A stretch of DNA of 25,768 nucleotides from a virus: positions 1 to 25,768 of the IMG/VR virus record IMGVR_UViG_3300001533_002793; one strand, given 5' to 3'. The translations under genes were made by a program, and so were the position numbers. Position 1 is the first letter of the stretch. Each line of letters begins with the position of its first letter. Positions 4,972 through 24,560 of the stretch are shown one piece after another. Below the pieces are notes generated by a model. The model did not search any database, was not told where the DNA came from, and saw nothing but the letters and a program-made list of their open reading frames with translations.

Positions 4972-6600
4972 TTATTGACATGGTTTTCCTATATCATTTA
5001 AATCATTTTCTGGTTCGGGACTGAATTCCAATAATGTGAAATTACCCTCCATTGAAATCTGATTGAAAACATTGGAAGTATTGTAATTATTATCACTGTC
5101 ATCCAAATCTGGTGAAATACTAAGTATTAGTGGTGCGAACAAATATCGCTTGCCATTCATGAAGGGATAATCAACACCGTTTCTCGAAATCGGTTCAGTG
5201 ACTCCCTGTGGAACAATTTCTCTCCAAACGTATTGTCCGTTATCGAGTTCTGTTGCGTATTCGGGAATCTCGGTTTCTTCTGGTACGAGTTCATTGGGGT
5301 TTGGTATCAGTTTTGTTACGACTCGAATAACGTCCCCAAACACAAAATTTTTAGTAGTGGTTACGATTTTTTCCTCATAACTGTTTTCAAACAAAATCGT
5401 GCTTCCAGATATTTTATCCCAATTACTGCCGTTTTGTTTCTGTATTTCAGTCACAGCAAAGTATCTGTAACTGTTTTGCGGGAATCTGATTCTGGCACTG
5501 AATTTCAACTCGTAATCCCCACCACCACCAAAAACAAATGTACCATTTGAAAGATTTGCCGTGACAGCACCACCACCATTGTTTTCGATACTCGTCCAGT
5601 CTTGTATCGGTGTCACACCTGACCCAATCATTTCATCATCAGATTTTTTTATTGATGACGTAATCCCTGTATTACCAGTGAAAACTACGTTAAGACTAAC
5701 ACTATTTTCCACCAATTTACTCATTTCGGAAGTGCTGAGGTCATCACTAAGATATCTTAATCTCAGAGGTATAAAGGGATTAAGTTTCCAAATAAGATAT
5801 TTACTTGTACTAGTACCAACTTTATACTGTGTCTTAATATATATGGTCTGATTCTCCACAAGAGTTTGTCTGTACTGACTCTGGTTATAATTAATAACTT
5901 CTCCAATTTTACCACCTGTTGCGGTTTCCACGAAATCACCGATACCAAGTGTTTTGGGGCTGTAATTGGTTTTAATTGCACTACCTGTTGTAATGTATCT
6001 CGTGTATTTCATGGTTTCAACCACACCATTTCCATTGGTTTTTAATTTGTATTGTGCAAATAAAAACAATTCCGTGACGGGAAATCCGAAGTTGTCGAAA
6101 AACGTGCTGACATCGAAATCCGTGTTGAAAGCAAATCCATAGGTTTGTTCGTCATAAACATTGGTTGTGAATCCCGCACGAAACAATTCGAAATCACTGG
6201 GAGTCGCAATGACTTGAAATAGTCTGAGATGATTACCACTGTTAACGCTTCCCGCACGTGTGTAACCACTATTTGCTGGCTTGACAAGATAGAAATCAAA
6301 GGAATTCAATAGTGTCTTGCAATTCGCATCGAAATCAGGTGTGAAAAAGTCATCGAGTTCATTGTAATTACTAACCAAACCATTTAATAACGACAGATAT
6401 TCTATTCTACCATAGATTCTATAAACTGGATTACCTTGTCTTTCCTGTTCGAAAACCCGTGTGGCATCCACGACATCATTAACACCGAATTCCGTGAGTT
6501 CCGCAGTACTTCGTGTTAACTCGGCTTTAGTGAATTCCTGAACGTTAACGCTCTCCGTACTTCTTTCCGAACCCAGCAATATTTCCAGTTTTCTATCCAT
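4972..6600 (-). CDS. Large tail/baseplate structural protein
   Basis: A 542-residue protein read from MDRKLEILLGSERSTESVNV; a longer version of 561 residues starts at 6657. The shorter start is preferred because a promoter-like GGTATTTAT lies just in front of it, although the 5-base gap is unusually small. The sequence is rich in beta-type, Asn/Thr/Gly-containing segments without long helices, as in fibre or baseplate proteins. Residues around 340-440 (GGGAVTANLSNGTFVFGGGG, then YELKFSARIRFPQN) resemble a C1q/TNF-type jelly roll, which phages use for receptor or glycan binding; this is a weak reading. No signal peptide. It leads a leftward pair with the gene starting at 4944. Exact role unknown. 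Confidence 0.65.
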   Translation of the reverse strand: MDRKLEILLGSERSTESVNVQEFTKAELTRSTAELTEFGVNDVVDATRVFEQERQGNPVYRIYGRIEYLSLLNGLVSNYNELDDFFTPDFDANCKTLLNSFDFYLVKPANSGYTRAGSVNSGNHLRLFQVIATPSDFELFRAGFTTNVYDEQTYGFAFNTDFDVSTFFDNFGFPVTELFLFAQYKLKTNGNGVVETMKYTRYITTGSAIKTNYSPKTLGIGDFVETATGGKIGEVINYNQSQYRQTLVENQTIYIKTQYKVGTSTSKYLIWKLNPFIPLRLRYLSDDLSTSEMSKLVENSVSLNVVFTGNTGITSSIKKSDDEMIGSGVTPIQDWTSIENNGGGAVTANLSNGTFVFGGGGDYELKFSARIRFPQNSYRYFAVTEIQKQNGSNWDKISGSTILFENSYEEKIVTTTKNFVFGDVIRVVTKLIPNPNELVPEETEIPEYATELDNGQYVWREIVPQGVTEPISRNGVDYPFMNGKRYLFAPLILSISPDLDDSDNNYNTSNVFNQISMEGNFTLLEFSPEPENDLNDIGKPCQ

Positions 6601-6605
6601 ATGAT

Positions 6606-6614
6606 ATAAATACC
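6606..6614 (-). promoter_or_regulatory. Near-match to the late promoter motif (GGTATTTAT)
   Basis: Differs from the nonamer at the first base only. It lies 5 bases upstream of the ATG at 6600 and within the extended frame that starts at 6657. If used, the transcript would be almost leaderless. Confidence 0.35.
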
Positions 6615-6703
6615 TTGAAAATAATTTCGTGAAACCGTAACCTTTTGTCTTGAGCATCGTATAATATCATGTGTTTAATTTAAAAACTTAAAATTAATTA
6701 ATT

Positions 6704-7159
6704 ATGAAAAAGACAATTTATTTCCTGACAATGATTCTCGCAGTTGCTCTGATGAGCACGAGTTGTGAAAAAGACCCTGTGGTTCCTGAGACTACAATAA
6801 ATGATTTTATTGGGGCTTGGGAAACCATCTCCTACGAGTATCAAAACGAATTGTATTTAACTTGCGAAGAATTAGAGGAAGCAGGTATTTCATCCAATGG
6901 AGTTGAATATGCGTTTCTCGAACTAACCATTAATTCGGCATCACACGCCATACTTAACGATATTTGTGATGAAAACACTGAATCCGATAATGTGGTGTTT
7001 GATAACAATTATCTTACCTTTAACGGTGGTGGTTTCTTAATTTTAAAATTCAAAGTATTGAATTTCGAGAACGATATGTTGGAATTGGAACTCTGCGAAA
7101 AAAACATTGGCACTCTTGGGGATGTGCTATTACATGGAAAATATGTTTTACAGAGATAA
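6704..7159 (+). CDS. Secreted lipoprotein, lipocalin-like (cargo gene)
   Basis: A 151-residue protein with a clear lipoprotein signal peptide: MKK, a hydrophobic stretch (IYFLTMILAVALM), then STSC with the lipidated cysteine at C21. The next residues EKDPVVPE are acidic, as in Bacteroidota lipoprotein export signals, so the product may reach the outer surface. After the signal, DFIGAWETISYEYQ resembles the start of small lipocalin-like or beta-barrel domains of Bacteroidota lipoproteins. It is alone on the plus strand between two leftward structural genes and has its own terminator, which is typical of a moron acquired from a host. A role in blocking superinfection or altering the host envelope is plausible but inferred. 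No late nonamer precedes it. Confidence 0.85.
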   Translation: MKKTIYFLTMILAVALMSTSCEKDPVVPETTINDFIGAWETISYEYQNELYLTCEELEEAGISSNGVEYAFLELTINSASHAILNDICDENTESDNVVFDNNYLTFNGGGFLILKFKVLNFENDMLELELCEKNIGTLGDVLLHGKYVLQR

Positions 7160-7164
7160 TAAGA

Positions 7165-7187
7165 ACCCTCTTCGGAGGGTTTTTTTT
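7165..7187 (+). terminator. Rho-independent terminator after the lipoprotein gene
   Basis: Six-base-pair stem ACCCTC/GAGGGT closed by a TTCG tetraloop and followed by eight T. It begins 5 bases after the lipoprotein stop codon. Its T tract touches the end of the convergent gene at 7186. Confidence 0.9.
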
Positions 7188-7494
7188 ATGTTACCAACCC
7201 CAGTTCGAACAGATACTTTATACAATCGGCATCATTTAATCCCTTGTAAAAATAGGTTCTTTCATCATTACTCGCTGTCGGCACACCGTTTTTCTTCCCA
7301 CCATTATAAGGACAAGGAGTGTTACCGTTACGATAACTCCCAGCAATTGGGGAAACCTGTAAATCCTTAAACCCCTTTGTTGTGACACCAATAAATTTCT
7401 TTATATCCTCAACAGGAACTTCAATAATATCAGTCCAATGTAGGTCAGAACGTGGAAAATATTTGGTGTTGATGTCACCAGCAGCGATAATCAT
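7186..7494 (-). CDS. C-terminal part of a frameshifted baseplate/fibre protein
   Basis: From the ATG at 7494 the product is 102 residues (MIIAAGDINTKYFPRSDLHW…). The frame remains open upstream through LNDND to the T6 run of the preceding gene. A -1 step there joins it seamlessly to the 595-residue protein, giving about 702 residues. It contains a CPYNGGKKNGVP turn-rich segment and ends LFELGLVT. It could be translated separately from the internal ATG, but the better reading is a C-terminal domain of the upstream protein. Confidence 0.6.
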   Translation of the reverse strand: MIIAAGDINTKYFPRSDLHWTDIIEVPVEDIKKFIGVTTKGFKDLQVSPIAGSYRNGNTPCPYNGGKKNGVPTASNDERTYFYKGLNDADCIKYLFELGLVT

Positions 7495-7505
7495 GTCGTT
7501 ATCAT

Positions 7506-9293
7506 TCAGAAAAAATGACCCTGTCTGTGGAAATGGTCTGCAACCTGAACATATTCTGTTCTATTATATGCACTAACAAGTTTTCCAACCTGTGGAAAAT
7601 GTATTGACAGATTCATCCAATTAGCACCGAAACGATGTGCAGTGTTTGATGTTCGATTAGATGGGAATCCATATTGGGAATTATTGTAGTTTGTGTCGTC
7701 AGCGGTGTTTTGGTAATTATTGGTGAGTATCACACCGACATTATTTATTTCATTGGCTGAAATAACGCTTATTTCTTTTGTAACATCATTAATAAAATCT
7801 TTACTAAAAAAACCGTTGGAATCATAACTACTGAATTGACTACTATCAGTACCACCTTCGTTTGCAACCGTAGCATGAAATCTTGAAAAACTATAGAATT
7901 TCTTGCTCTCAAACCTGAAATTTTGTTTTCTCCAATTTATTACAGTGGCGTGATTGTTTCCAGTGTTCCAACCCAAACCGTTTTTAGGTGCAGCATATTG
8001 TGGGAATTTAAATCTATATCTGAATGGTTCGACCGTTGCGTTATTACCAATATCAACACTGAAATTCATAGGTAATTCATCCTCAGTGATTTCAAGAGTC
8101 ACGAATCCCCTGAATTCCGTGAATATTCCGTTTGGATTGGTGTCGGAAACCAATACAGGGGTTCCATCGTCACCAGTAACCACTTTATTTCTATTACAAT
8201 TTATAATAAAAACAAAATCTCCATTTCGTTTATAAATTGAATAATTACTTGGGTCAAGTATTTCCATGTCACTACAATCATCTTCAACATTTCCAGAATC
8301 GATATCGGCATCACTAATATGTGATGGATAGTAATATATTTTCTCCGTTACCTCACCAATTCTTTTTGAAAACATTCCAGCGGTTTCGTTTACGTTTTGA
8401 CGTGCACTAAAAAGTTCTTGTATGTTTCTCGCACCACTAACACTATTCTCACCATACATAGCGTTATCACCATCAGTAAAAACACTTCCAAACATAACGA
8501 ATGTATTAACAAGAGTTGCTCTGATTCTGAAATCCTGTCTCGTGATTCCGATTTCGAAATTCTCGGTATCTCCCCAAAATGGTCTGATATCGGCACTGAT
8601 TTCCTGAGTTTCGATATTGGGTAAATCACCTAAATCCTGACTGGCTTTTATTCTGGTATTGTTGTCAGTAAATAGATTCGCAGGATAACCTAAATTGGTT
8701 ACCATGGATGCGGGATTCATGCTGTATTCACCGATATCCGTGATATCACAACTCATGTGTATGGTTTGCGTACCAATAGGCACACCAAATATCATGTAAT
8801 CACCAGCGTTATTTGTTGTGGTTGTGTATTTATAATATTTTTTATATACCCGTAAAAAGGTTTCGTTGGTAACGATTTCTTCTTTAATGGGAAAACTACC
8901 GAATGCCTGTTTAGGTTTTACTTGACCATCTTCGGGGTCGATTTTACTTACTCGTGGTAATAAATTGTATCGCTTGCCTTCGGTATTCTTATCTCTGGGA
9001 TTGGTGTAGGGATAGAGTTTATATATATCGGGATTTTCAGTATCTTCATCACTTATCGGTATAAATATACTGACCTTGGCATTTGGAATACCCACACCAC
9101 CATTAGCAATAACCCTACCAACAAGAACCCCGTAGTCCGCATTGAAGTTCTGATACACGTCTTTGGTTCCAAGTGTCATTGACATGAATTCCAGTGTATC
9201 AACATCTTGTTCCAGTCTTACAGTAAAATATTTCGTGTCATTTAGATTCCCACTATCATCAGTATTAAGATATATGTGTTGTGATTTATTCAT
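7506..9293 (-). CDS. Baseplate/fibre-type protein with carboxypeptidase-regulatory-like domain
   Basis: A 595-residue protein starting MNKSQHIYLNTDDSGNLNDT. An upstream extension to 9392 lacks an ATG and contains the promoter, so 9293 is the chosen start. Residues about 60-220 form a pattern of carboxypeptidase-regulatory (transthyretin-like) beta sandwich: GVLVGRVIANGGVGIPNAKV early, then TTTNNAGDYMIFGVPIGTQT, interrupted by an insert. The remainder is Asn/Thr-rich beta-type sequence typical of tail fibres and baseplate appendages. It stops at a TGA directly after a T_TTT_TTC heptamer, and the -1 frame continues as the gene at 7186-7494. A late promoter motif lies 15 bases upstream. Role inferred from composition and neighbours. 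Confidence 0.7.
   Translation of the reverse strand: MNKSQHIYLNTDDSGNLNDTKYFTVRLEQDVDTLEFMSMTLGTKDVYQNFNADYGVLVGRVIANGGVGIPNAKVSIFIPISDEDTENPDIYKLYPYTNPRDKNTEGKRYNLLPRVSKIDPEDGQVKPKQAFGSFPIKEEIVTNETFLRVYKKYYKYTTTTNNAGDYMIFGVPIGTQTIHMSCDITDIGEYSMNPASMVTNLGYPANLFTDNNTRIKASQDLGDLPNIETQEISADIRPFWGDTENFEIGITRQDFRIRATLVNTFVMFGSVFTDGDNAMYGENSVSGARNIQELFSARQNVNETAGMFSKRIGEVTEKIYYYPSHISDADIDSGNVEDDCSDMEILDPSNYSIYKRNGDFVFIINCNRNKVVTGDDGTPVLVSDTNPNGIFTEFRGFVTLEITEDELPMNFSVDIGNNATVEPFRYRFKFPQYAAPKNGLGWNTGNNHATVINWRKQNFRFESKKFYSFSRFHATVANEGGTDSSQFSSYDSNGFFSKDFINDVTKEISVISANEINNVGVILTNNYQNTADDTNYNNSQYGFPSNRTSNTAHRFGANWMNLSIHFPQVGKLVSAYNRTEYVQVADHFHRQGHFF
7509..7515 (-). other. Frameshift point, T_TTT_TTC heptamer
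   Basis: In the zero frame CAT TTT TTC TGA ends the long protein. A -1 slip on T_TTT_TTC, or one extra T, gives G-H-F-F-L-N-D-N-D-M and enters the 7494 frame. The heptamer has the canonical X_XXY_YYZ form. The nearest possible stem (TGGTG/CACCA) is some 25 bases downstream, farther than is usual for a stimulator. Confidence 0.65.
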
Positions 9294-9308
9294 ACCCAAG
9301 TCTTTTCT

Positions 9309-9317
9309 ATAAATACT
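9309..9317 (-). promoter_or_regulatory. Putative phage late promoter motif AGTATTTAT
   Basis: Exact nonamer on the minus strand, 15 bases upstream of the ATG at 9293. It lies in a 291-base divergent gap that holds no gene; the other end of the gap carries the motif for the sheath gene. Confidence 0.6.
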
Positions 9318-9513
9318 AATACGAGAAAAACGAAAAATTTTTGATTTATTTTCGAAAAAAAATCGAGACGAATTTAAGCAAATTTTTAACAAAAAAAGAC
9401 GAAAATCTGGAAATCGAGAAAAATCTAGGTAAAAAAACCATGAAATTCGGGAAAATCTGGTGTTGTATCATCGTGATAATAATCATTTAAAAACTTCTTT
9501 TCGATATTTTTTC

Positions 9514-13390: not shown

Positions 13391-14029
13391 AAAAGATAAT
13401 AATGGGAAACGTAAACAAACTTTTACGAAAAAATCAAAAGTAAATGCTGAAGGGTTTAAAAATATCGATACTTTGGCACATGCCTATATTCTCGGATTAT
13501 TATAGGCAGATGGAACAGTATCTTTTGCTAATAATAATGCTAAAACACCACAAATTAAACACTCGGCAAAAAAAGAGGATAATCAGGATTTCAGAAAAAT
13601 AAGAAAAATAATATTCTTGAAGTTAATTGGACTTCTAACAGGGAATTAGGTGAATTCTTAATTGAAATGGATTATAGAAACAAAAACAAATCACCAATTA
13701 AAATAATTAACATATTAAATAATGAAGAAAAACAATTTTGGTTTAGAGGTTTTTTTGATGGTGATGGGTCTGTTAGTATTTTTCCTAAAGGACACCATTC
13801 CATTACATTCACTGGTTCAAAAAATCAAGACTGGAAGTTCGTATGTGAATTATTTAATAATATTGGAGTTGAAAAATATAGGGAAAGAATTATTGAGAGT
13901 CGAAACGCATATTCTTCTCAAATCAGAGTAACCAATAAAAAAGACATTAAAACATTTCAAAATTATCTATATCAAGATTTACCGAATCTTAGTTTGTGGA
14001 GAAAAAGAGAAAAATTTATACTGCTTTGA
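13391..14029 (+). pseudogene. Decayed two-motif LAGLIDADG homing endonuclease
   Basis: Translation gives AHAYILGLL, then a TAG at 13503-13505, then ADGTVSFANNN: a first LAGLIDADG motif with a stop in it. A -1 shift at the A5 run (13604-13608) leads into NILEVNWTSNRELGEFLIEM. The last 120 codons, from an ATG at 13667, are open and hold the second motif (FWFRGFFDGDGSVSIF) and a normal-looking C-terminus. No start codon is visible before the first motif. With one stop, one frameshift and no start, the gene is not functional as written. The 3' part overlaps the convergent nuclease gene by 14 bases. It lies directly behind the tail tube terminator, as expected for a free-standing homing gene inserted between phage genes. 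Confidence 0.85.
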
Positions 14030-22313: not shown

Positions 22314-22593
22314 TACTATTCTCTTTTAATTGTGTGACCTGATGCCTGAGTTCCAGTTGTAATTCCTGCATGAGGTCAGTATGTTTTTTTATTAATTCTT
22401 CATCAGTGATATACACGGGGTTAACACATTCCACTCTGGTTTCAGAACCCTGAGTGGGTATCATGATGATTTCGCCTTCAAAAGTACTTGGTGTTATACG
22501 TGAACTCACTTTATACACGAAGTCCTGAAGGTCTTCACTACGAATACCTGCCACTCCGATATAAAACACCAATATTTTCTTTTCATCAACCAT
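22306..22593 (-). CDS. Small hypothetical protein
   Basis: 95 residues. It starts MVDEKKILVFYIGVAGIRSE, a strand-turn pattern, and ends in a helix (DEELIKKHTDLMQELQLELR) and ENSNE. It overlaps by 8 bases at both ends, with the PhoH gene and with the HAD-like gene, so translation is probably coupled. Not recognised. A globular alpha/beta domain with a helical tail is likely. Confidence 0.7.
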   Translation of the reverse strand: MVDEKKILVFYIGVAGIRSEDLQDFVYKVSSRITPSTFEGEIIMIPTQGSETRVECVNPVYITDEELIKKHTDLMQELQLELRHQVTQLKENSNE

Positions 22594-24532
22594 TTAATCG
22601 TTGTTTCTTTCTACCATTACCGTTATTATTGGTTTCAATGTGTTCCTTGTATTTCTTCTCAATTATGGTGATAAGTGGATTTCTGATATTGGTATCTTCA
22701 TCACTCATTTTAATTACACCCATGTTTTCGACTTCATTGAACATATCGAGAAGCGTTTCCAATGAACTATCGGTTTTGTTTCTCATATCGATTTGATTAA
22801 TATCACCAAGTAATATGATTTTGGCGTTACTGCCGATACGAGTTAAAAGTGTTCTACTGTTATCAAGACTTATGTTTTGACAGTTATGTGTTAAAATATT
22901 ATTCACAAAATAATTATTGTTTTCATTAACCTCCATATTATAAACAGTAGTAACACCACCATCATTAATCTCACTAATGGTTGATGTTGTAAGTTCATAA
23001 TTATTTAAATAATTAAAATAATTGTTGAATTTAAAATATCCTTTATAATCATCATTTAGTTTATAATACATGGAAGGATGAACATATTCTTTAATTAAAT
23101 TTTGAAATTTATTTGAATTTTCGTTATTTAACCTTAAATAAAAATACGAATTAAAATCACCAACTCTATCTTTTCTTGGTTTCTTTATTGTTTCAATTTT
23201 TAATTCGATATTGAATTTATTTTTCAATATCGTTAGTAGATGATGATTTTCTGTTTTAGTAAATCCTTCTGAATGTAAACTAATATTTGACCCCTTATTA
23301 TTATATATATGATTACTTCCATCATCCATAAACCATGTAGCAAGCGTTCTTACCGTCATATATTTTTCAATACCAGCGGTAATTCTCTTTTTCTTTCCAT
23401 TAGGAAATAACCTTTCAATAAAATCACTATTAATATAAAATGATTTAGTGTTTAATACAGACATATTTTCACCAGTAAACCCCGATTTTCCAGTACTACT
23501 ACATTCAGTGTTATATAATAAACCGCAAAATTTATTATATTCCATCTGTTTTAACGAATGTTGTTTTCTGATTCTGAAAACATTATCACCCCATTGTTTA
23601 TTTTTTTGTAAACAACCATCACCTAATAAAAACCCTAATAAAATATCATAATTTTTTTCATTCAATATCGAATGGTTACCTGATTTATTCTTTCTTTTTA
23701 GAATCTTATCCCCAACACTTAACTCGTTAGCGGTAACATATTTTATATTATTTTCACTATCAATGACAGCAAATGGGTGGTTTTTTGTGATAATTAAATC
23801 ATTTATGTTTTCTCTTAGTTTTATTTTTATTGTTTCTTTATTTTTAGTTATTCGAATTGAATTAATTTCTTTATATTCATTTTTATTCGTTTTATCATTA
23901 TGTGATAAGACCGTGAGATTATTATATTTTTTAAAATAATGAGGTAATCTTTTTAATTTAATGTGTTTAGGTTTTTTATCTAACATAGATGTTTTAATTA
24001 TTATCTTATTTTCACCTGAAACACATTCATCGGCAATAATAATACAGTCATCGAGACTCGCACCCCTAATAAAAGCAAGTGGTGCGGGTCTCACGATATC
24101 CTTTTCAACCAGTTGTTTCAAAGCGATATCTGTCATGACTTTCTCCATGTTGAGATAAAAACTCCACATGGCGGGTTCAATTTTTTCACGAATATCACCC
24201 GGTAAGAATCCGACTTCCTCGTCTTTAAGCGTCTTTACGGACTTAACGAGATAGATTTTCTTAAAACGATTCGTTGATTTTTTCAGAAGATTTAAAGCGA
24301 TTCCCATTGCAACGAAGGTCTTACCTGTACCAGCAGGACCGGCACAAATCGTGATTTCATTCGTCTTTATCGACTTAATCAATTTAATCTGACTGTCATT
24401 CATCGCTTTTATTTTTAGGTCTCTAGGTAAAATCTTATTTATTTCAGATTTTGTTCTTTCAACGTCTTCTTTCGTGTTTACACGAATCAGTTCATCGTAT
24501 TCCTTTTCTTCTTTGAATCTATCTCTTGCCAT
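22586..24532 (-). CDS. phoH: PhoH-type ATPase precursor with an intein
   Basis: 648 residues from the ATG (MARDRFKEEKEYDE); a GTG two codons earlier is an alternative. Walker A is AGPAGTGKT at about 64-72. Walker B is CIIIADE at 163-169, directly followed by the intein Cys170. The intein ends HN at 549-550, and the second part resumes at Cys551 with CQNISLDNSRTLLTRIG and ILLGDINQIDM, the sensor region of PhoH proteins. After splicing the product would be a 267-residue P-loop ATPase, as found in many T4-type phages; its role is unsettled (possible RNA or phosphate-starvation link). The extein Cys after ADE replaces the usual Ala of DEAQN, as splicing chemistry requires. Confidence 0.92.
   Translation of the reverse strand: MARDRFKEEKEYDELIRVNTKEDVERTKSEINKILPRDLKIKAMNDSQIKLIKSIKTNEITICAGPAGTGKTFVAMGIALNLLKKSTNRFKKIYLVKSVKTLKDEEVGFLPGDIREKIEPAMWSFYLNMEKVMTDIALKQLVEKDIVRPAPLAFIRGASLDDCIIIADECVSGENKIIIKTSMLDKKPKHIKLKRLPHYFKKYNNLTVLSHNDKTNKNEYKEINSIRITKNKETIKIKLRENINDLIITKNHPFAVIDSENNIKYVTANELSVGDKILKRKNKSGNHSILNEKNYDILLGFLLGDGCLQKNKQWGDNVFRIRKQHSLKQMEYNKFCGLLYNTECSSTGKSGFTGENMSVLNTKSFYINSDFIERLFPNGKKKRITAGIEKYMTVRTLATWFMDDGSNHIYNNKGSNISLHSEGFTKTENHHLLTILKNKFNIELKIETIKKPRKDRVGDFNSYFYLRLNNENSNKFQNLIKEYVHPSMYYKLNDDYKGYFKFNNYFNYLNNYELTTSTISEINDGGVTTVYNMEVNENNNYFVNNILTHNCQNISLDNSRTLLTRIGSNAKIILLGDINQIDMRNKTDSSLETLLDMFNEVENMGVIKMSDEDTNIRNPLITIIEKKYKEHIETNNNGNGRKKQRLNG
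22883..24025 (-). mobile_element. Intein with LAGLIDADG endonuclease in the PhoH gene
   Basis: 381 residues. Block A begins CVSGENKIIIKT with the nucleophile Cys1. Block B is TKNHPF (80-85) with the conserved His. The endonuclease domain has two LAGLIDADG-type motifs: LLGFLLGDG (129-137) and TLATWFMDDG (227-236). Splicing blocks F and G are TVYNMEVNENNNYFV and NILTHN, followed by Cys+1. All residues needed for splicing are present, so it appears active. It interrupts the ATP-hydrolysis motif and is a homing element. Confidence 0.93.
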
Positions 24533-24560
24533 ATTCACTTAAAGTGTTGGTTTAAATCGA

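Follow-up and report, generated by a model that had tools for sequence, protein, structure and literature searches.

Results

Gene organization of the locus

The window, i.e. the 25,768-base virus record analysed here over its whole length, is assigned to a contractile-tailed phage by PHROG matches to sheath (5.3e-64) and tube (1.2e-25) proteins; the T4-type virion genes of the initial annotation hold at the level of these matches. On the plus strand, positions 6704..7159 carry a gene with an ATG start for a protein of 151 aa, in the model a lipocalin-type beta barrel behind a lipoprotein signal peptide. That this is a real gene follows from 30 distinct proteins, described below, which share C21 and W39. 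The signal peptide comprises codons 1-21 (6704..6766, plus strand) and ends in the lipidation cysteine; the hydrophobic leader reads MKKTIYFLTMILAVALMSTSC, ending in MSTSC, and continues with EKDPVVP, which places E22 and D24 behind C21 as the acidic residues annotated there. The mature body of 130 aa follows at 6767..7156 on the same strand. The gene has its own promoter (6635..6665, plus strand, CCGTAAC-N16-CGTATAAT), which ends 38 bases before the ATG, and an intrinsic terminator with a TTCG loop (7161..7184, plus strand), a stem-loop with a T tract. The terminator, already proposed from the sequence, stood up to folding: the segment 7150-7195 gives -17.6 kcal/mol with a z of -4.6, and 0 of 200 shuffles equal it.

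Both neighbors lie on the minus strand, so that the opposite orientation noted earlier is correct. The divergent tail-cluster gene (4972..6600) belongs to an open reading frame of 4972-6657, its probable start at 6600 (MDRKLEILL) being suggested by similar starts in relatives, and it is preceded by a late motif, GTATTTATA, at 6605..6613 on the minus strand. The convergent tail-cluster gene (7186..9392), separated from the lipoprotein gene by 26 bases, is split in the window into two open reading frames in different frames, 7186-7494 and 7506-9392, and in most relatives it is a single frame of about 675-783 aa; where the two frames adjoin there is a short run of A, so that an assembly or sequencing slip is possible. 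Elsewhere in the window an intein that carries a LAGLIDADG endonuclease splits a PhoH-like gene (22586-24538; Pfam PF02562, PF14890 and PF03161), and two more open reading frames look by eye, from their translations, like homing endonucleases (101-832, with a GIY-YIG-like beginning, and 13667-14029, LAGLIDADG-like).

Occurrence of the lipoprotein family in related phages

Direct searches with the window protein alone found no relative in Pfam, PHROGs, INPHARED, IMG/VR or the GTDB contigs (pattern-based scan), and none above the cut-off in NCBIfam. Relatives were reached through the neighbors instead: a sheath search yielded 43 loci, and of 115 loci found with the convergent tail protein 80 were kept. 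An iterated profile over all open reading frames of these loci collected 53 entries, among which the window's copy is counted twice; they represent 30 distinct proteins including that of the window. The readings of the gene as an orphan or as a one-off were thus overturned by the neighbor-based searches. Scans with two single relatives as queries returned only copies identical to the query, so the family is hardly sampled beyond these phages.

Junction scoring gave 91 rows (some contigs occur twice, e.g. L015/L112), with the gene present in 42, absent in 30, and 19 too short. From the 30 absences five were left out, four since the contig ends inside the neighbor (L015, L109, L112 and L124) and one since the gene end was misplaced (L110), which leaves 25. 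The gene is therefore present in 42 of 67 decidable contigs, near-identical ones included, always on the strand opposite to the same convergent tail gene; it lies directly beside that gene in 35 carriers and is displaced by 423-890 bases in seven (L030, L107, L116, L118, L120, L121 and L122), the distance in the L027 and L107 groups being 840-890 bases. With 30 versions known, the claim that the gene is carried alone, in the sense of a singular acquisition, cannot be upheld. In 22 of the 25 contigs without the gene the junction is plainly empty, i.e. the next tail gene comes immediately after the stop of the convergent gene, and in 13 of these 22 the motif GTATTTAT sits directly between that stop and the next start. 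The other three are a truncated remnant which has kept promoter and terminator (L080), a contig with another exported open reading frame (L102) and one that is not plainly empty (L101). The protein at this junction in L102 (12273-12797) has 174 aa and a signal peptide that by eye lacks a lipobox, and it stands under the same promoter type, for which reason the slot may accept other envelope genes. Four long records without the gene at the junction had no match elsewhere in the record at E 0.01.

Presence was also followed on a tree of the convergent tail gene with 51 tips, 31 with and 20 without the lipoprotein gene. It requires 13 changes, compared with 16.0 for shuffled labels, and 6.6% of the shuffles are as low; with clustering this weak, presence was rejected as a clade marker. 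Sister pairs which differ in presence are L007/L066, L065/L070 and L058/L069. The moron arrangement proposed by the initial annotation is a fair description, because besides the gene's own promoter and terminator and the abutting neighbors in 22 of 25 contigs without it, presence is scattered over the tree; the slot is nonetheless widely used.

Lipoprotein signal, host and fold

C21 is invariant in 30 of 30 proteins, each of which has a signal peptide with a lipobox cysteine, and in the AlphaFold2 model residues 5-19 of the signal form a helix of low confidence (pLDDT 57). A surface export signal of Bacteroidota has been described with the optimal form C-X-K-(D/E)2 (PMC5080379). This form occurs exactly in 9 of 28 members, K stands at +3 in 24 of 28, and acids lie near the cysteine; the CEKDP of the window is not a strict match. 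Exposure of the lipoprotein at the cell surface is therefore only suggested by its sequence. As for the host, the GTDB contigs searched with the sheath held no relative, so the phylum is read from the type of lipoprotein signal, from the fold and from motifs resembling ribosome binding sites, which are at chance level (2 of 25 starts, compared with 6% in shuffles); together these make a host from Bacteroidota probable. INPHARED had no tblastn match to the lipoprotein or to the convergent tail protein, i.e. no cultured relative.

Structure prediction with an alignment of 30 rows gave an AlphaFold2 model of mean pLDDT 85.5 whose body is, in this model, a lipocalin-type barrel nearest to Bacteroides proteins. 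The best VIA-align match of the mature region is a lipocalin-like protein of Bacteroides uniformis (4qrl, Z 10.4 over 90 residues at 2.3 A), and the second an uncharacterised Bacteroides protein (5byp, Z 9.6). Further matches include an Enterococcus protein, nitrophorin 4 (4hpb, Z 9.1), other lipocalin-type barrels and fatty-acid-binding proteins. Foldseek's best E-value was only 3.3e-3, for which reason the assignment of the fold rests on the Z-scores, on the tryptophan motif (W39 is invariant in the 30 proteins and stands in many of them in the context L-x-G-x-W) and on matches to PF13648 (Lipocalin_4). The latter is matched by 7 of 30 members at E up to 1, the best at 2.1e-4. The window protein itself has no Pfam match and does not reach the gathering score of PF13648 (0 of 1 records with a match), so that we claim the fold and not membership of the family; in a control set PF13648 was found in 1 of 14 genomes, that of Bacteroides ihuae. 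A single match at E up to 0.001 was found in BFVD, a lipocalin-like domain protein of Siphoviridae sp. ctHeV6 (A0A8S5MDH5, E 1.5e-4). The description of the lipoprotein as host-like is accordingly borne out for fold and signal type, and not for sequence, as the pattern scan of the GTDB contigs gave no relative and the window sequence no Pfam family. One relative has a longer lipoprotein of 248 aa (L084, 12244-12987); some 100 additional residues, which by eye look Ig- or PKD-like, separate its signal from the barrel.

Promoter type and late motif

The sequences upstream of the family share the consensus TTGTAAC-N16/17-CGTATAAT. Among 30 gene copies 29 have a site with at most two mismatches that ends 22-55 bases before the start (2 of 1500 for shuffles), the window, with two mismatches, among them; in the sequence upstream of the remaining copy (L116) a promoter of this type is not recognisable. 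The promoter is not confined to the lipoprotein. Counted without mismatch and with a spacer of 12-22 allowed, it gives 88 sites in 12 long related records, none of which lacks one, and 0 in the reversed control. Four of these 88 sites are the lipoprotein's own promoters (G004, G005, G006 and G010), and the other 84 lie at least 35 kb from the convergent tail gene if the records are linear, at least 14.7 kb if they are circular. In the stretches fetched for closer inspection, which were picked for promoter matches or virion genes and not at random, the promoter precedes arrays of small, mostly unmatched genes at up to 18 sites per 20 kb, a density biased by this choice; the whole-record counts are unbiased. 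Three stretches of 20 kb surround virion genes, and in these no site is closely followed by an open reading frame except at the two lipoprotein genes. Promoters of the family type also precede genes at 12952-15336 in L151 and 12759-13550 in L152, and one lies at 6028 in L155. A 795-aa protein under such a promoter has no library match and recalls, to our minds, T4 rIIA; another is a GmrSD_N-domain protein (PF03235, E 5.8e-15), with a similar open reading frame, by eye, in G004.

The virion genes show the reverse pattern. Among distinct upstream sequences, the 100 bases next to the start contain the motif GTATTTAT for 55 of 55 sheath genes, 74 of 76 tube genes and 49 of 51 convergent tail genes (0.8-2.1% in shuffles), whereas it stands before 0 of 30 distinct copies of the lipoprotein gene. 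This motif is the T4 late promoter core read as its reverse complement. The reported lack of the late nonamer was found again in all 30 distinct homologues including that of the window, in the sense orientation over 160 bases upstream. In the window this sense reading is seen upstream of 9585 and 12847, as it is in relatives, and the T4 late core in its own orientation is nearly absent upstream of sheath (0 of 55) and tube (3 of 76). Terminators were found by a strict criterion at 24 of 30 copies, the window included. Because 29 of 30 copies have the non-late promoter type and none the late motif, we infer from these sequences that the lipoprotein is probably expressed early, apart from the late genes that surround it. 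This contrast would mark an early-type gene within a late cluster even if the role proposed below were wrong.

Exchange of the body behind a conserved leader

Compared with the nearest relative with a long flank (L003), the lipoprotein is the least conserved of 17 aligning genes (33%, the next 43%), while sheath and tube are 85% and 95% identical; 20 window genes were given to this comparison and three had no match, perhaps because the locus ends. The lipoprotein is lowest also in relation to L009 and L007, but in relation to L035 four small window genes (32-39%) fall below its aligned part (41%). The variation is unevenly spread. Between the window and its nearest relative (L002) the signal is 76% and the mature part 35% identical, the latter compared with 27% for shuffled sequence, and most close pairs likewise differ less in the signal peptide than in the body. 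Over the 28 of 30 distinct proteins used for the comparison of signal and body (L021 and L116 left out), mean body identity is 0.29, compared with 0.24 for shuffled sequences (378 pairs).

The sharpest case is the pair L077/L064, in which the end of the signal peptide is the very point behind which the body is replaced: 62 of 63 bases are identical through the cysteine codon and then 18 of 42. The convergent tail genes of this pair are 70% identical, and the mature proteins 23%, at the shuffled level of 25%. Bodies differ to the shuffled level in L054/L016 as well. Other pairs are less abrupt. L023/L007 agree at 59 of 63 bases and then at 20 of 42, their bodies still beginning with the same residues; in L016/L008 an identity of 84-90% persists for some 87 bases past the leader; L027/L114 drop only to 65-76%; and in L083/L084 the leader already differs (70%), similarity returning at the 3' end (72%). 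In several pairs, then, the signal peptide is conserved and the mature body replaced, in L077/L064 exactly at the anchor cysteine.

Linkage of body and signal to the neighboring genes

The similarity of bodies was compared with that of the neighbors in 28 phages for the convergent gene and 25 or 24 for the divergent one, a set to which the window itself does not belong. Given the N-terminal 300 residues of the convergent protein, body similarity follows its C-terminal parts with a partial r of 0.41 (residues 300-600) and 0.43 (600-712), reached in 0 of 1000 permutations; for the divergent gene the values are -0.11 and -0.02. Signal similarity behaves otherwise: it is correlated at 0.40 with the first 200 residues of the divergent gene (2 of 1000) and at 0.06 with the rest, and at -0.30 and -0.22 with the convergent gene. 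These permutations do not fully remove kinship. Within the main clade of 20 phages body and convergent gene give a partial r of 0.24 and 0.33 (permutation fractions 0.005 and 0.004) and body and divergent gene 0.14 and 0.11 (0.12 and 0.18), a smaller contrast in which the two neighbors are not clearly different; the signal and the first part of the divergent gene give 0.29 (0.036). Recombination whose two joints lay near the leader and within the tail gene would leave such a pattern, but closeness alone could produce it as well.

The convergent gene is conserved over its first 300 residues (mean pairwise identity 0.61-0.74) and variable beyond residue 400 (0.30-0.41), a profile that would suit a tail protein whose distal part varies. 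Because its predicted structure has no clear match, to a known adhesin or otherwise (Foldseek none at <=0.001, VIA best at a weak Z of 5.0), it is a guess that this putative tail protein binds a receptor or takes part in adsorption.

Discussion

From the predicted fold, the promoter class, the patchy presence, the exchange of bodies, their linkage to the tail gene and the likeness to known phage lipoproteins we suggest, at a probability of roughly 0.45 and in keeping with the initial annotation, whose proposal of phage exclusion or a changed host surface is still the likeliest, that the gene encodes an autonomous early-type envelope lipoprotein which excludes superinfecting phages and whose body is fitted to the current receptor of the phage. 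After infection the gene would be transcribed from its own non-late promoter, and signal peptidase II would anchor the product at C21, so that a lipocalin-type barrel would come to stand on the outer membrane and would probably face outward. There the barrel could bind or occlude a component of the cell envelope which incoming phages need, and the infected cell and its debris would cease to adsorb related virions, i.e. superinfection exclusion. Downstream of the conserved leader the body would be exchanged jointly with the variable region of the convergent protein, which is to be expected if the lipoprotein has to fit the receptor that the phage currently uses. The linkage between body and tail gene may, on the other hand, come from their physical closeness alone. 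A broader idea, which we hold to be possible but doubtful, is that of leader-anchored cassettes: a fixed slot would keep promoter and signal, and lipocalin-type bodies would be swapped at or just behind the cysteine codon along with the variable region of the tail adsorption protein next to it; the choice of receptor and its blocking would then be inherited, and altered, as a single module in a large group of uncultured phages (records up to 349 kb).

Since lipocalin-type barrels bind many ligands, other functions also fit. The body could be an inhibitor or decoy aimed at a surface peptidase, a bacteriocin, a toxin or the protein of another phage, protecting the infected cell or the released virions. 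Hypervariability and exchange would suit any arms race; potempin E of Tannerella (so named in the title of its PDB entry), presumably a protease inhibitor, is among the structural matches with a Z of 8.8, and a model of BSAP-5i immunity is weakly matched by 4 of 30 members (best E 0.0066). As these matches are weak or at the level of the fold only and the locus names no target, we regard such a role as rather unlikely. Somewhat less likely still is a metabolic moron, that is, a binder of small molecules (capture of lipid, haem or a nutrient) which would alter the physiology of the host envelope during infection. The lipocalin-type fold, with nitrophorins and fatty-acid-binding proteins among its matches, speaks for it, but a conserved pocket should fix residues, and only C21 and W39 are invariant in the 30 proteins, while the bodies of some near relatives (L077/L064 and L054/L016) are at the shuffled level.

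It is improbable that the gene drifts as an accessory without a selected function at present, its leader kept as an anchor for recombination while the bodies turn over. Scattered presence and the truncated remnant in L080, which retains promoter and terminator, would agree with this, but the promoter is kept in 29 of 30 copies, the predicted fold is confident, and C21, W39 and the open frame persist in 30 of 30 although the bodies average near shuffled identity. A lipidated component of the virion or tail, or a tail chaperone, made together with the other tail proteins is slightly less probable again: the place in the tail cluster and the similarity of the body, which tracks the C-terminal part of the convergent protein, would be explained, but not the non-late promoter (29 of 30), the missing late motif (0 of 30), the opposite orientation, or the absence from 25 of 67 contigs, in 22 of which the tail genes abut. 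Phages also possess lysis lipoproteins, the outer-membrane spanins; however, an outer-membrane spanin is a short proline-rich peptide, here we have 151 aa with a globular barrel in the model under a promoter that is not of the late type, and the neighboring open reading frames searched had no match to lysis genes, which makes a spanin very improbable. On these grounds the spanin, the virion protein and the metabolic gene were rejected or demoted.

If exclusion is the function, uncultured phages, probably of Bacteroidota, would obtain the same device from a different protein, and the family would serve as a marker linking each tail protein to the envelope target that it fits. Superinfection exclusion lipoproteins are best studied in coliphages, and among the matches listed in our literature search there was no paper on a lipocalin-like exclusion lipoprotein of a phage. 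The nearest analogy is with T5, whose Llp blocks FhuA, is made early and is encoded next to oad, the gene for receptor binding; in BF23 an unrelated Llp that blocks BtuB stands in its place (PMC9586334, PMC4728585). The likeness to these phages lies in a phage lipoprotein, early in T5 and probably so here, beside an adsorption gene, putative in our case, and in the replacement by an unrelated protein with the same role in BF23. The differences are that T5 Llp, as described there, is much smaller (61 residues compared) and acts on FhuA from the periplasmic face, whereas here a body of 130 residues is modeled as a lipocalin-type barrel; because of that periplasmic site the analogy gives no support to a location at the surface. 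Families of Llp or Cor type were not matched in Pfam and NCBIfam by the 30 members, nor in PHROGs by the window protein.

Lipocalin-like proteins of Bacteroidota (PF13648; PDB 4qrl, 4gzv and 4i95, with 5byp titled uncharacterised) share the barrel and the conserved tryptophan in L-x-G-x-W and are the nearest solved folds, but the window sequence does not match PF13648, and here the barrel comes with a phage promoter and terminator and with a hypervariable body. The ctHeV6 protein A0A8S5MDH5 has the lipocalin-like match in common with the window lipoprotein, at 280 aa and 16% identity. A moron is an autonomous cargo gene of a phage, and the classic ones were described in temperate phages. Our gene resembles them in its own promoter and terminator, in lying on the opposite strand and in standing between genes that abut in relatives; it differs in that one slot is used across many divergent phages, the record of the window being a fragment. 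New here are the lipoprotein family itself, its promoter class and the exchange of its bodies behind a conserved leader.
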